This document shows positions 15,979 to 60,886 of a DNA stretch of 63,299 nucleotides, piece after piece (position 1 is the stretch's first letter; each line of letters opens with the position of its first letter). The DNA is from a virus, in the IMG/VR virus record IMGVR_UViG_3300025536_000016, positions 1 to 63,299 of that record. One strand, written 5' to 3'. The translations under genes were made by a program, and so were the position numbers. The notes under the pieces were generated by a model, which did not search any database, was not told where the DNA came from, and saw only the letters and a list, made by a program, of their open reading frames with translations.

Positions 15979-16263
15979 ATGTTAAATCCGGAAAGTGTCA
16001 AAGTGGTGAAAAATGAAATCGAAATCATGAGGAATGAAGTTAAAGAAGGTTTCCGACGAACTCGGGTAATTAATTCGACAACGATACAGGCGACGAATCA
16101 GGGAGTCAATGGTTATGGAGGAAAGGTTTTCTATTATTACATCAGTGTTAAAGATGACGAAGGAAAAGTCACTTGGTCGAATTCTTCCTCTCGATTGAAT
16201 GAAATCCTTTCTTGGTATTCTAAGAGAATCAAGACCCTTAATTCTAAGAATCAAATCCATTAA
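15979..16263 (+). CDS. Hypothetical protein, 94 aa
   Basis: A small soluble protein with a helical N-terminus and a beta-rich middle (YGGKVFYYYISVKDD). The leader AATCAAGGATAAAGAAA precedes the ATG. It is the first gene after an operator-controlled promoter, and its stop codon is three bases before hammerhead ribozyme 1. No family recognised. Confidence 0.75.
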   Translation: MLNPESVKVVKNEIEIMRNEVKEGFRRTRVINSTTIQATNQGVNGYGGKVFYYYISVKDDEGKVTWSNSSSRLNEILSWYSKRIKTLNSKNQIH

Positions 16264-16266
16264 ATA

Positions 16267-16320
16267 GACCGAAACTCCCTCCTCTGGGAGTCATGGAGTT
16301 AATCTCCATCTGATGAGGTC
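16267..16320 (+). ncRNA. Type II hammerhead ribozyme 1
   Basis: The parts are stem II strand GACC, core GAAA, stem III CUCCC/GGGAG with loop UCCUCU, U-C cleavage site (predicted cut between 16292 and 16293), stem I AUGGAG/CUCCAU with loop UUAAU, core CUGAUGA, and stem II strand GGUC. The open helix is stem II, which makes it type II. Its stem II pair GACC/GGUC replaces the GAAC/GUUC of the other three copies, a compensatory change. It lies between a stop codon and the AATCGAGGATAAA leader of the next gene. Confidence 0.95.
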
Positions 16321-16347: not shown

Positions 16348-16782
16348 ATGGAAAAAATTCAGAAAACACGGATTGAAAAAGTCTCGGATTTGAAACCGGG
16401 CGACGTTATTTACAAATTTGAAAGATGGTCTTATGAAAAGAATCTCAAAGCTGAGAAACCTTTACCGGTCATCAATTTTCATCGAATCTTTGTTATCTCA
16501 AATGTTCATTTATCGGAGGGAGGAAAATGGCTTTTCGATTATCGGAAACACGACCGGCTTTCTTCATCGAACGGAGACCACTTGAAAGTCATCAGGGCTT
16601 TGGCGGAAAGAAAAGTTTGTGAGGGCGGAACATTCGGGTGCAATCAGAGAATTCCGGAAAAGGGCGAATTCTTTCATTCGGAAATCTGGAGACTGGACAC
16701 GATTCGGAATTCGGTTTCTCCCTCTTATAATTATTCCGGAGTGATTCTTTACAAAAATCCGGCTTATGATTTGATGCATTAA
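16348..16782 (+). CDS. Hypothetical protein, 144 aa
   Basis: Begins behind AATCGAGGATAAAAGAAA, downstream of hammerhead 1, so the cleaved mRNA for this gene would start with the 3' part of the ribozyme. The N-terminus KVSDLKPGDVIYKFERWSYE suggests a small beta-barrel-like domain, followed by CEGGTFGCNQRIPEKGEFFH with two Cys and a His that might bind metal. No family recognised. Confidence 0.75.
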   Translation: MEKIQKTRIEKVSDLKPGDVIYKFERWSYEKNLKAEKPLPVINFHRIFVISNVHLSEGGKWLFDYRKHDRLSSSNGDHLKVIRALAERKVCEGGTFGCNQRIPEKGEFFHSEIWRLDTIRNSVSPSYNYSGVILYKNPAYDLMH

Positions 16783-25489: not shown

Positions 25490-25612
25490 AATATTTTTTC
25501 ATCTGGGTTGATGAGTCCTAGCTAGAGGGAGGAGAGAATAGGCCTCGTATTTCATTCTTTATCCTCGGCGATTCTTTCTTTCCTGATTCATCAATCCAGA
25601 TGAAAAAATATT
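25490..25612 (+). ncRNA. Long hairpin RNA with loop complementary to the phage ribosome-binding leader
   Basis: 28 bases (25490-25517) pair without a gap with 25585-25612 (two G-U pairs). After a bulge CTAGCTAG, 14 more bases (25526-25539) pair with 25571-25584. The 31-base loop contains ATTCTTTATCCTCG (25554-25567), the exact complement of CGAGGATAAAGAAT, the ribosome-site leader directly before ATG 57740 and nearly that of many other genes. This could be an antisense regulator of translation. A plain protective hairpin is the alternative. Confidence 0.7.
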
Positions 25613-25617
25613 GATAT

Positions 25618-25746
25618 TCAGGGAGAATGCGGAAAGGTCTACAACTTTAGGACGCTGGTTCAAATCCAGCCTGCGGAGAAATCCAAAGTAGCTCAGATGG
25701 ATAGAGCGGAAGTCTTACCCGACTTTTCAAAATCTTGTCTCCCTGA
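25618..25746 (+). tRNA. Permuted tRNA-like element (3' half precedes 5' half)
   Basis: The 3' half comes first: anticodon-stem strand ACTTT (25644-25648), variable loop AGGAC, T-stem GCTGG/CCAGC around TTCAAAT, acceptor strand CTGCGGA (25671-25677). Five bases after G78 the 5' half starts: acceptor TCCAAAG (25682-25688), TA, D-arm GCTC-AGATGGATA-GAGC, anticodon-stem strand GAAGT (25709-25713), then CTTACCC. GAAGT pairs with ACTTT. The acceptor strands pair at five of seven positions. The outer flanks close it: GACTTTTC (25721-25728) with GAAAGGTC (25632-25639), and TCTCCCTGA (25738-25746) with TCAGGGAGA (25618-25626). No linear tRNA can be drawn. Anticodon undecided (UAC, UAA or CUA, depending on the joining point). 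Confidence 0.6.
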
Positions 25747-25762
25747 TTTAATCGTTATTTTC

Positions 25763-57353: not shown

Positions 57354-57659
57354 ATGAAAGCAAACACACACATCAACAACTTGGTAAATTTCGGACATCC
57401 GGTTCAGGTTTTAATCGACTTTTCGAGAATGAATAAAACGGAATTAAAATCTTTCCTGAAAGATTTGGAAGTCGACATGACGGGAATCAAGGGAGATAAA
57501 TCTTTGGCACTGGCGAGAATCACTTTTCGGGATTTCGTTGCTCAAAGTGGTAAATCAATTGATGGATGGGATTTCTCGGCTGACTTGGCAATCCTGAATG
57601 ATGAATTTGAATCCTATTCCGCGAGATTCGATTATATGGCTTCTCGGAAATACCGGTAA
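57354..57659 (+). CDS. Hypothetical protein, 101 aa
   Basis: Leader AATCGAGGATAAAGAAA. Soluble, with a helical segment (FSRMNKTELKSFLKDLEVDM) resembling a small SAP-like or HeH helix pair, not proven. The stop codon (57657-57659) is followed without a gap by hammerhead 2. It is a small first gene before a hammerhead, as at 15979. Confidence 0.7.
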   Translation: MKANTHINNLVNFGHPVQVLIDFSRMNKTELKSFLKDLEVDMTGIKGDKSLALARITFRDFVAQSGKSIDGWDFSADLAILNDEFESYSARFDYMASRKYR

Positions 57660-57711
57660 GAACGAAACCTCCCTCCGGAGGTCATGGAGTTAATCTCCAT
57701 CTGATGAGTTC
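57660..57711 (+). ncRNA. Type II hammerhead ribozyme 2
   Basis: GAAC, core GAAA, stem III CCUCC/GGAGG with loop CUCC, U-C site (predicted cut between 57683 and 57684), stem I AUGGAG/CUCCAU with loop UUAAU, core CUGAUGA, GUUC. It starts on the base after the preceding stop codon. The ATG inside CUGAUGAG is in frame with the AAA+ gene but has no ribosome site. Confidence 0.95.
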
Positions 57712-57739
57712 AGAACCAAATAAATCGAGGATAAAGAAT

Positions 57740-59269
57740 ATGTGCTTAGAAAATCAATTAATCAAAGATTTCAATAAAGGAATCAAAGTTTCGACCCCGT
57801 TATTTTCCATCAATTGCTTCGACCCTGAAATGCTCCTGAAAAATCTTTCGGAAAAATTAGTTCCTATCATCAACGATTTCGGCTCGAAGGAAAGACCCAT
57901 GATTCAATGGGATTGTGTTCGAGGATGGCAGGCAAGAAATAAATCCGCAATCGAAGCAATCGGAATGGCGCTGAATGGCGCGGAATTGGAGGACACATTC
58001 AATCCAGTCTCCTCCCTGAAATTGGCTCAGAATCTGCCGGAGGGTTCGATTCTCTTTCTTTTGAATGGTCATCTTTATTTCAAGGATGATTTTTCTTTTC
58101 TTCAAGCGTTCTGGAATCTCCGAGACACGTTCAAGGCAACGAATCGAGCCTGTGTGATTCTGACGAACTCTTTTATCCTTCCTCTGGAAATCCAGAACGA
58201 CGTTCTCATACTCGACGAGAAGTTACCTGATGAGGAGGATTTGAGGAATATCATCAAGGAATTGGCGGAGGAAAACGAAATCAAATTATCTGAGGAAGAT
58301 ATTGAAAAAGGAGTCGTTGCTCTGAAAGGATTGAGCGCTTTTCCTGCGGAACAATCCGTCGCCCTCTCTCTGGGAAAATCCGGACTGGATATTGAAAATC
58401 TTTGGAGCCGGAAAATCCAGAAAATCAATGAAACTCCCGGTCTCTCGGTTCACAAAGACGGTGCGAAATTTGAAAATCTCGGAGGATTGGAAGAAATCAA
58501 GAATCGGTTCTCTCGAATCATCAAAGGAAAAAAATCTCCAAAAGTGATTGTCTGGATTGATGAAATCGAAAAGGCAATGGCGGGAGCGGGAACGGAATCC
58601 TCCGGAACAACTATGGACCAGCTCGGAGTCCTCCTCAATGAATTCGTAGAAAAGGATTATTCGGGTTCGGTCTTCGTAGGAGTTCCGGGCGCCGCTAAAT
58701 CCGCCCTCGCGAAAGCAATCGGAAATGAGGCTGAAGTGATAACCATCAAATTAGACCTCGGAGAAATGAAAGGACAATTCGTTGGATTATCGGAGGAAAG
58801 AATCCGGACGGGAATGAAAGTTATTGAAGCAGTCGGAGGATTCGGAGGGGCTTTCTTTGTGGCAACCTCGAATGACATCTCCTCGATTAAACCGGAACTC
58901 CTCCGGAGATTCAAAAAAGGAGTCTGGTTCTTCGATTTACCGACACGAGAAGAAAGAGAAGTCATCTGGAAAATTTATTTGAAAAAATATGAATTCGACA
59001 TCAACCTCGTGAAATCAATCAGATTCGACGAAGGTTGGACGGGAGCGGAAATCGAGAACTGCTGCATGACGGCATGGGAGGAAGAAATTTCCATCGAGGA
59101 AGCTTCAAAATCAATCATTCCAGTTTCGGTCTCCGGAAAGGAACAGGTCGAAAGATTGAGGAACGAGGCGAATGGAAAATATTCCTCGACGAATTATGCG
59201 GGGGTTTATAATTCCTCAATGAATGATGTGAAATTCATCCAGCCGAAACGACGAATCGCGACGGACTAA
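57740..59269 (+). CDS. Ycf46-type AAA+ ATPase with permuted Walker motif order
   Basis: ATG 57740 is chosen behind AATCGAGGATAAAGAAT. 509 residues. The N-terminal half (ACVILTNSFILPLEIQNDVL, then LPDEEDLRNIIKELAEENEI) matches the regulatory part of Ycf46-like ATPases. Then VIVWIDEIEKAMAG, a Walker B (about 268-282), comes BEFORE the Walker A GVPGAAKSALAKAIG (about 314-328), followed by VGLSEERIRTG, sensor 1 FFVATSNDI, and RRF as arginine finger. Ordinary AAA+ proteins have A before B. Other phage proteins share this order as far as I recall. Likely a remodelling factor working with the DUF1257/DUF2997 genes downstream. Confidence 0.8.
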   Translation: MCLENQLIKDFNKGIKVSTPLFSINCFDPEMLLKNLSEKLVPIINDFGSKERPMIQWDCVRGWQARNKSAIEAIGMALNGAELEDTFNPVSSLKLAQNLPEGSILFLLNGHLYFKDDFSFLQAFWNLRDTFKATNRACVILTNSFILPLEIQNDVLILDEKLPDEEDLRNIIKELAEENEIKLSEEDIEKGVVALKGLSAFPAEQSVALSLGKSGLDIENLWSRKIQKINETPGLSVHKDGAKFENLGGLEEIKNRFSRIIKGKKSPKVIVWIDEIEKAMAGAGTESSGTTMDQLGVLLNEFVEKDYSGSVFVGVPGAAKSALAKAIGNEAEVITIKLDLGEMKGQFVGLSEERIRTGMKVIEAVGGFGGAFFVATSNDISSIKPELLRRFKKGVWFFDLPTREEREVIWKIYLKKYEFDINLVKSIRFDEGWTGAEIENCCMTAWEEEISIEEASKSIIPVSVSGKEQVERLRNEANGKYSSTNYAGVYNSSMNDVKFIQPKRRIATD

Positions 59270-59465: not shown

Positions 59466-59975
59466 ATGGAAAACACGAACGAAATCAAATCAACCGAAAC
59501 AACAAAGGAAATCATCTTTTTAATGGGTTTACCCGCAGCAGGAAAATCGACCGAGGGTCAGAAAGCTTTTGGTTCAACACACACCTTCATTGATTGCGAC
59601 GAAATCAAAAAATCTCATCCTGATTATAATCCGGCAGAAGCTTTCAAAGTTCACGAATGGTCGAAAATGGAAGAAGAAAAAGTTTGGCTGAAAGCCTTGA
59701 CGACGGACGGACAATTTGTCCTCGATGGAACGGGAACGAACGCAGAAAAAATGGTGCGAAGAATCAATCAGGCGAAGGCGATGGGATTCGAGACAAAATT
59801 ATTCTACGTGACATGCACTCTGGAAACCTCCATCCGACGGGCTCTCAAACGGGTTCGCCAGGTTCCTCTCGAAATGATTCAGGAAAAAGCCCTGAACATC
59901 GCGACTTCCTTTGAAATCGTTGCAAAATATGTTGACACGATTCAGGTGGTCGACAACAACACCGACACCAAATAA
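59466..59975 (+). CDS. P-loop kinase of the zeta-toxin / polynucleotide-kinase type (AAA_33)
   Basis: 169 residues. Walker A FLMGLPAAGKSTEG (about 19-32), then FIDCDEIKKSHPDYNPA with the D-x-D of zeta toxins and 5'-polynucleotide kinases, then VLDGTGTNAEKMVRRINQAK and the Arg-rich lid RRALKRVRQVP. Members phosphorylate RNA/DNA 5'-OH ends, tRNA or UDP-sugars. Its stop is six bases before hammerhead 3. Since hammerheads leave 5'-OH ends, an RNA 5'-kinase here would make sense, but the substrate is not shown by the sequence. Confidence 0.75.
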   Translation: MENTNEIKSTETTKEIIFLMGLPAAGKSTEGQKAFGSTHTFIDCDEIKKSHPDYNPAEAFKVHEWSKMEEEKVWLKALTTDGQFVLDGTGTNAEKMVRRINQAKAMGFETKLFYVTCTLETSIRRALKRVRQVPLEMIQEKALNIATSFEIVAKYVDTIQVVDNNTDTK

Positions 59976-59981
59976 TCCGGA

Positions 59982-60044
59982 GAACGAAACTCCGGAGGGA
60001 GAACCCCTCCGGAGTCATGGATTAAGAATCCATCTGATGAGTTC
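59982..60044 (+). ncRNA. Type II hammerhead ribozyme 3
   Basis: GAAC, GAAA, an extra-long perfect stem III CUCCGGAGGG/CCCUCCGGAG with loop AGAAC, U-C site (predicted cut between 60016 and 60017), stem I AUGGAUU/AAUCCAU with loop AAG, CUGAUGA, GUUC. Stems I and III differ in length and sequence from the other copies but stay fully paired, which is strong evidence of selection on structure. Confidence 0.95.
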
Positions 60045-60073: not shown

Positions 60074-60355
60074 ATGAAATCGGGCGAAGCAATCGGAATG
60101 GTCAAAGTTGGAAGGATGACTTCTGAGGGAAAATTTCAACCAGCAGAAGATACGGATGGCGGATGGATTGGAAGTGGTCAATTCGCAATCGAATTGGGAA
60201 ATAAAAATTATTATCTTGATTATTTTCATGTCGAGGATGTTTTTAGAAGAACGGCTAATGCAGTTGTTCCGAGATTGAAGAAACACGCAGGATTCGTTCT
60301 GACCTCGATTTCCATCGGTCAAACTCGGGGCTGGGTATTTATCATCTGCGATTAG
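60074..60355 (+). CDS. Hypothetical protein, 93 aa, lying between two hammerheads
   Basis: Leader AATCGAGGATAAAGAAA. Beta-rich, soluble (GQFAIELGNKNYYLDYFHVE). It is the only gene between hammerheads 3 and 4, so cutting by both would release a 362-base single-gene mRNA. The G of its TAG stop is the first base of hammerhead 4. No family recognised. Confidence 0.75.
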   Translation: MKSGEAIGMVKVGRMTSEGKFQPAEDTDGGWIGSGQFAIELGNKNYYLDYFHVEDVFRRTANAVVPRLKKHAGFVLTSISIGQTRGWVFIICD

Positions 60356-60406
60356 AACGAAACCCTCTCCGGAGGGTCTTGGAGTGAATCTCCAACTGAT
60401 GAGTTC
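60355..60406 (+). ncRNA. Type II hammerhead ribozyme 4, overlapping a stop codon
   Basis: GAAC, GAAA, stem III CCCUC/GAGGG with loop UCCG, U-C site (predicted cut between 60378 and 60379), stem I UUGGAG/CUCCAA with loop UGAAU, CUGAUGA, GUUC. The outer stem I pair is U-A here and A-U in the other copies, another compensatory change. Base 60355 is shared with the TAG stop of the gene before, so a terminating ribosome would cover the ribozyme. Confidence 0.95.
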
Positions 60407-60442: not shown

Positions 60443-60886
60443 ATGTCACACGTCGCAACTATAAAAATGGAATTCAAGGATTTAGAATGCCTCAAACGGG
60501 CAGCTAAAAAATTGGGTCTGGAATTCAGGGAGAATCAAAAGAATTATAAATGGTACGGGACTCATGTTGGAGATTATCCGGTGCCGGAAGGATTCACCAA
60601 AGAGGACCTCGGAAAATGTGACCACGCGCTCTCCATTCCTCAAACAGAGGATAATTCCGGACGAGCTTATGAAGTCGGTGTGGTCGAAAATAAAACCGGA
60701 AAAGGTTACACTCTCCTCTGGGATTTCTGGCAGGGAGGATTCGGACTCCGGCAGAAAATCGGAGACAACGGAATTCAGCTCCAAAAGGAATACGCCGCAC
60801 AAGTCGCGGAAAAACACCTGAAAATTCAGGGTTATCAAGTCCGGAGAAAGATTCAGGGAAACAATATTTTAGTGGAGGGATATTAA
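60443..60886 (+). CDS. DUF1257 (Ycf35-like) protein
   Basis: ATG 60443, with GGAGGA about 20 bases upstream. 147 residues. MSHVATIKMEFKDLECLKRA is the DUF1257 start (M-S-H-x2-T-I-K then a helix), and the C-terminal LKIQGYQVRRKIQGN fits too. In cyanobacteria and in phages such genes tend to occur near Ycf46-type ATPases and DUF2997 genes; the function is unsettled. Same arrangement here. Confidence 0.75.
   Translation: MSHVATIKMEFKDLECLKRAAKKLGLEFRENQKNYKWYGTHVGDYPVPEGFTKEDLGKCDHALSIPQTEDNSGRAYEVGVVENKTGKGYTLLWDFWQGGFGLRQKIGDNGIQLQKEYAAQVAEKHLKIQGYQVRRKIQGNNILVEGY

Follow-up and report, generated by a model that had tools for sequence, protein, structure and literature searches.

Type II hammerhead ribozymes have been described in bacteria and prophages (RF02276; Perreault et al. 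2011, PMC3088659), where they form clusters flanking single phage genes. Prophage arrays of these elements cleave in vitro and in E. coli, and they have been proposed to process long phage transcripts into gene-length mRNAs (PMC3088659). Another hammerhead variant, HHphage, likewise lies between phage genes in the haloviruses HF1 and HF2, and a transcript 5′ end has been mapped within three nucleotides of its cut (PMC3088659); it differs in its variant core, and it is described by its 13-nt distance to the downstream start and not tied to a stop codon. The theta ribozymes of gut phages are also small, self-cleaving and involved in processing phage RNA, but they are HDV-like elements with a part in tRNA-based recoding (PMC10879173), not hammerheads at gene ends. 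Intrinsic terminators behind phage genes, too, place a hairpin 3′ end on the upstream mRNA shortly after the stop; however, they lie at a median of 21 nt from it and end transcription, whereas cutting by a hammerhead still allows synthesis of the downstream RNA. Both this class of ribozyme and its clustering in phages are thus already known. The term "stop codon" is absent from the text of PMC3088659, and adjacency to stop codons, the sharing of a base and a preference for UAA were not found in the literature searched, which covered few subscription papers; their priority is uncertain.

We analyzed a 63,299-nt stretch of viral DNA, referred to here as the window. A structural descriptor scan of both strands found four type II hammerheads and no more, each of them on the plus strand; an independent pattern recovered the identical four, with no hits in a reversed-pattern control. 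The elements and their neighboring genes are as follows.

15979–16263, + strand: gene ending in TAA (16261–16263), 3 nt before stem II of hammerhead 1
16267–16320, + strand: hammerhead 1, open stem II GACC/GGTC, stem III of 5 bp, stem I of 6 bp, predicted cut after 16292
16348–16782, + strand: gene starting 27 nt behind hammerhead 1, no match in Pfam or PHROGs
57354–57659, + strand: gene ending in TAA (57657–57659), directly abutting hammerhead 2 (gap 0)
57660–57711, + strand: hammerhead 2, stem II GAAC/GTTC, predicted cut after 57683
57740–59269, + strand: AAA ATPase gene, likely start at 57740, 28 nt behind hammerhead 2
59466–59975, + strand: P-loop kinase gene ending in TAA (59973–59975), 6 nt before hammerhead 3; Zeta toxin match of 55 bits, weak phage polynucleotide kinase match
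59982–60044, + strand: hammerhead 3, stem II GAAC/GTTC, stem III of 10 bp, predicted cut after 60016
60074–60355, + strand: gene between hammerheads 3 and 4, ending in TAG (60353–60355), whose G60355 also belongs to stem II of hammerhead 4 (gap −1)
60355–60406, + strand: hammerhead 4, stem II GAAC/GTTC, predicted cut after 60378
60443–60886, + strand: gene after hammerhead 4, weak DUF1257 match

All four copies carry the hammerhead core (CUGAUGA, GAAA and the GUC cleavage site), and in all four a 4-bp stem II is open while stems I (6 to 7 bp) and III (5 to 10 bp) are closed by loops, which is the type II arrangement. They share the architecture, core and possible loop I/tail pseudoknot of the elements described in PMC3088659, differing in stem II, which is about 2 bp long there. 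In hammerhead 1, loop I (TTAATC) can pair well with the tail (GATTAA); 4 bp are possible in hammerheads 3 and 4, and pairing is weak in hammerhead 2. Among the other phage copies surveyed below, 53% can form this pseudoknot compared with 35% of re-dealt sequences, which gives it moderate support only. In a search of the whole window, none of the four copies reaches the RF02276 gathering cut-off of 37 bits (hammerhead 4 scores 28.6 bits, E = 0.00096 for 551 nt). That cut-off is a detection threshold, and the window copies satisfy the architectural definition of the type. Nor do they have the GC-rich hairpin and U run of an intrinsic terminator, since stem III is followed by UC and stem I. Minimum-energy prediction, which ignores tertiary contacts, leaves stem II unformed in copies 2, 3 and 4 and gives copies 2 and 3 a rival hairpin CUGA/UCAG that could represent an inactive alternative fold. 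In hammerheads 1 to 4, the UCAG that can pair in this way with the core CUGA consists of stem II plus its tail, and this rival-hairpin motif occurs in 70% of the GACC group of surveyed copies.

The gaps between stop codon and stem II that the first-pass annotation had read from the window proved exact, at 3, 0, 6 and −1 nt for hammerheads 1 to 4. The corresponding distances from stop to predicted cut are 29, 24, 41 and 23 nt, and the next start codons lie 27 to 36 nt behind stem II. When a 52-nt element was placed at random in the phage's own same-strand spacers, with 15 nt or more reserved for a ribosome binding site, four gaps that are all 6 nt or less were expected by chance with p ~ 3.6e-5 (p = 0.078 for a single copy).

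A survey of other phages, proposed earlier as the check on this spacing, was then carried out by scanning IMG/VR with patterns that name ribozyme bases only and are blind to stop codons. It yielded 541 type II hammerheads after de-duplication and none in reversed-sequence controls; a contig 100% identical to the window over 7.9 kb (L002) was not counted as an independent relative. Stop trinucleotides are enriched directly upstream of stem II across the 541 copies, reaching 30% at offset −2, 16% at −3 and 9 to 13% at −4 to −7 over a baseline of ~4%, and the peak at −2 corresponds to TAG sharing the first G of stem II. Here the pattern introduces a bias: the scanned stem II sequences start with G, which makes one-base sharing possible mainly as UAG. 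The gene caller also errs at some high-GC loci (L304, L292, L357), and for this reason our conclusion rests on tests that do not use gene calls, with deposited annotation as a further check. One such test asked whether an open frame of 40 codons or more has its stop at −9 to −2. This is so in 58 to 90% of copies, depending on the stem II group, as against 0 to 9% when the test was shifted 20 to 100 nt upstream.

Gene calls give the same picture, with a gap of 6 nt or less in 322 of 399 copies and of −1 to 6 nt in 315 (79%); 112 share one base with the stop and 59 abut it. The upstream proteins fall into 327 BLASTP clusters, 77% of which are close, and the adjacency is therefore not one inherited arrangement. 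The earlier suggestion that the tight spacing looks selected is borne out to this extent: it recurs behind hundreds of unrelated protein families. In an independent sample, free of the pattern bias, 17 of 26 Rfam covariance-model matches in two bacterial phyla had a close gap. Placement within the footprint of a terminating ribosome thus exceeds chance in the survey, in the caller-free test and in the covariance-model sample. The rule is strong, not universal, and weaker at high GC: the caller-free test finds close stops in 66% of copies at 60% GC or above versus 96% below 40% GC. Among genome contigs, 61% of 59 copies are close, although these represent only 13 upstream clusters (46% of them close), and in the deposited annotation of the Streptomyces phages Hank144 and R4 the gaps range from 1 to 44 nt and once reach 272 nt. 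Neither of two further sources yielded an annotated check: PaP3, for which a variant hammerhead is reported in the literature, gave no match with our structural descriptor, and blastn of one hammerhead against annotated phages gave chance matches only.

The base just before stem II is an A in 95% of close copies, in 92% of far copies, in 83% of those preceded by an opposite-strand gene and in all 62 genome-contig copies; the base just behind stem II is likewise mostly A. Because it is kept in far copies and opposite-strand contexts too, the A ahead of stem II is part of the ribozyme; the elements described previously also have an A at Rfam model position 1 (PMC3088659). The UAA or UAG of an upstream gene can consequently double as the conserved unpaired 5′ A, with UAG adding the first G of stem II. 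Stop usage is skewed as well. Compared with the stops of same-contig genes before spacers of at least 15 nt, genes ending 0 to 6 nt from a ribozyme use UAA 127 times (83 expected) and UGA 36 times (63 expected; p ~ 8e-10); at far ribozymes, the same own-contig control revealed no skew. Both release factors recognize UAA; of the three stops, UGA is the leakiest. Given these release properties, the gain of UAA and loss of UGA fit a need for a clean end of translation before the fold.

Taking together the architecture, the four gaps, the close spacing seen again across hundreds of unrelated contexts, the A conserved before stem II, the preference for UAA and the presence or absence of a ribozyme exactly behind a stop, we favor a reading in which the type II hammerhead is probably a self-cleaving punctuation mark between cistrons, placed just outside the translated region under a passive constraint. 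The element would begin where upstream translation ends, with the conserved unpaired A and then stem II at its 5′ border. Its spacing would arise because the fold has to stay clear of the translated region while the spacer is minimal. The window copies presumably cut themselves. A cut ~23 to 41 nt past the stop would leave the upstream mRNA with a short 3′ end in which stem III forms a closing hairpin and which bears a 2′,3′-cyclic phosphate, and the downstream mRNA with a 5′-OH end that begins with the stem I hairpin, ~55 to 65 nt before the start codon. These hairpins may protect both products.

Compaction alone may explain much of the close spacing. If a phage deletes every spare base, a ribozyme would abut the stop simply as nothing else is needed there, and in line with this, the median length of ordinary same-strand spacers is 2 nt, the spacer that remains when the ribozyme is subtracted is ~27 nt and nearly all ribosome binding site, and gap frequency declines from the minimum. 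As the whole explanation, however, this is quite improbable. The gap and local packing are not significantly correlated (Spearman 0.08, p = 0.12), and the gap has an interquartile range of −1 to 4 nt against −4 to 66 nt for ordinary spacers; compaction does not predict the gain of UAA and loss of UGA; and in similar loci neither type III hammerheads nor terminator-like hairpins abut stops. A test of "slack", meaning close gaps despite at least 100 nt of room downstream, was withdrawn, as most of these apparently roomy cases conceal an uncalled small gene 10 to 40 nt behind the ribozyme.

The first-pass annotation had further proposed that a ribosome at the stop codon would cover stem II and the core. 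A terminating ribosome covers roughly 10 nt past the stop. Of the core it would accordingly reach GAAA, along with the 5′ strand of stem II, but not the CUGAUGA half, which lies ~40 to 50 nt downstream; the proposal holds to that extent. The annotation went on to suggest that cutting waits for the end of translation or is blocked by it. In such active coupling, a ribosome that is terminating or waiting in a queue would mask stem II and GAAA, and folding and cutting would follow only after ribosomes have cleared the upstream gene; cleavage would then possibly report the end of translation and spare a busy mRNA. Gaps of −1 to 5 nt do place these parts in or near the footprint, frequency falls sharply at 6 nt, and most ribozymes in loosely packed loci are still close (67%, n = 48). 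Terminator-like hairpins have to stay clear of the footprint; at the ribozyme loci their median distance to the stop is 21 nt, and only 12% fall at −1 to 6 nt. We nevertheless regard active coupling as unlikely: the distances have no clear optimum and mainly decay from the minimum gap, homologues differ in gap, the Streptomyces phages are loose, 42 ribozymes follow an opposite-strand gene, and termination is normally fast, so that the delay would probably be small unless ribosomes queue.

Other hammerhead types bear on the same question from two sides. Type I hammerheads (98 copies) hug or overlap stops at 0, −1, −4, −6 and −10, often holding the stop inside their 5′ strand, and at −10 the stop is the UGA of CUGAUGA itself, as active coupling would allow; against it, the 13 type III hammerheads with a same-strand upstream gene never come nearer than 19 nt to the stop. 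The upstream cleavage product ends in stem III for types I and II, which is not possible for type III, where a separate hairpin is often present: a stable fold lies directly upstream in 50% of type III copies versus 11% of shuffled sequences (n = 18, a small sample). We read this contrast as a pressure to give the upstream mRNA a hairpin 3′ end. At individual type III loci, a strong hairpin abuts the 5′ end in L489, L418, L421, L445, L463, L502, L436 and L453. At type I loci including L488, L496, L500, L514, L419 and L428, the end of the upstream gene overlaps the ribozyme, and the stop is a UAA just before the CUGAUGA core or the UGA inside it.

In its fullest form, the coupled arrangement would make stop codon and ribozyme one functional unit, with ribosome release licensing folding and cutting, each cistron being separated once it is no longer densely translated, and UAA being favored since clean, fast termination would set the timing. 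This remains a doubtful proposition. A plainer account fits the data as well, namely a ribozyme kept outside the translated region, minimal phage spacers and a 5′ A drawn from UAA or UAG. Under the favored reading of punctuation with a passive constraint, a terminating ribosome over the 5′ strand of stem II and GAAA would likely cause some passive interference, which need not be a regulatory switch.

Comparison of homologues reveals presence or absence of the element exactly behind the stop. L194 and L216 (96% identity) have the same TAA, with a ribozyme behind it in only one of the two, and L154 and L135 (96% identity) differ in the presence of a ribozyme behind the same C terminus, with the stops TGA and TAG. 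Where both homologues carry a ribozyme, their gaps frequently match, though not always (4 versus −1; 0 versus 10); closeness is retained while the exact number drifts. The survey thus bears out the expectation of nonrandom distances to the stop in other phages, with the qualification that the exact gap is not fixed. Copies can be dense: L108 has eight ribozymes in 3.6 kb, one behind nearly every gene. Further dense stretches of this kind occur in L086 (3 copies) and L151 (11 counted). In L108 and L086, many copies share the G of TAG.

Such clean presence and absence behind one stop, the great diversity of upstream genes (327 clusters) and the near-identical copies behind unrelated genes within one genome (in L108, and as hammerheads 2 and 4 of the window) would be expected if hammerheads were dispersed as short modules and joined to gene ends by recombination, perhaps via TAG/TAA microhomology, adjacency being merely the mode of insertion. 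We consider this origin very improbable as the reason for the rule, as it would not account for persisting closeness, stem sequences vary freely, like ordinary RNA evolution, and an unsystematic look noticed neither terminal repeats nor an element-linked mobility gene.

By holding across more than 300 unrelated families of upstream proteins, the placement rule links phage hammerheads to the point at which mRNA translation ends, and stop-codon bases that serve as ribozyme bases make the role of these elements testable with few point mutations. For annotators, the ribozymes offer a marker for true gene ends in phages; for synthetic biologists, they offer a natural layout for gene-by-gene cutting of mRNA.

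Several other features of the window are worth recording. The AAA ATPase gene, for which no relative was found in the viral contigs searched, has a frame that is open back to an AUG inside CUGAUGA of hammerhead 2 (57704–57740), and an alternative start within the ribozyme is possible. A 5′-OH RNA kinase would act on hammerhead products, a point of context for the P-loop kinase gene at 59466–59975. Genes for RtcB and for Ro60/TROVE were not found in the window. Behind the terminase gene lies a 440-nt non-coding gap with a long inverted repeat, CATCTGGGTTGATGA ... TCATCAATCCAGATG (window 25500–25750). Within the same gap, a Y-RNA-like (YrlA) structure with tRNA-like arms is matched at 25620–25747; its score of 50.1 bits (E 2.9e-8) falls short of the 69-bit cut-off.
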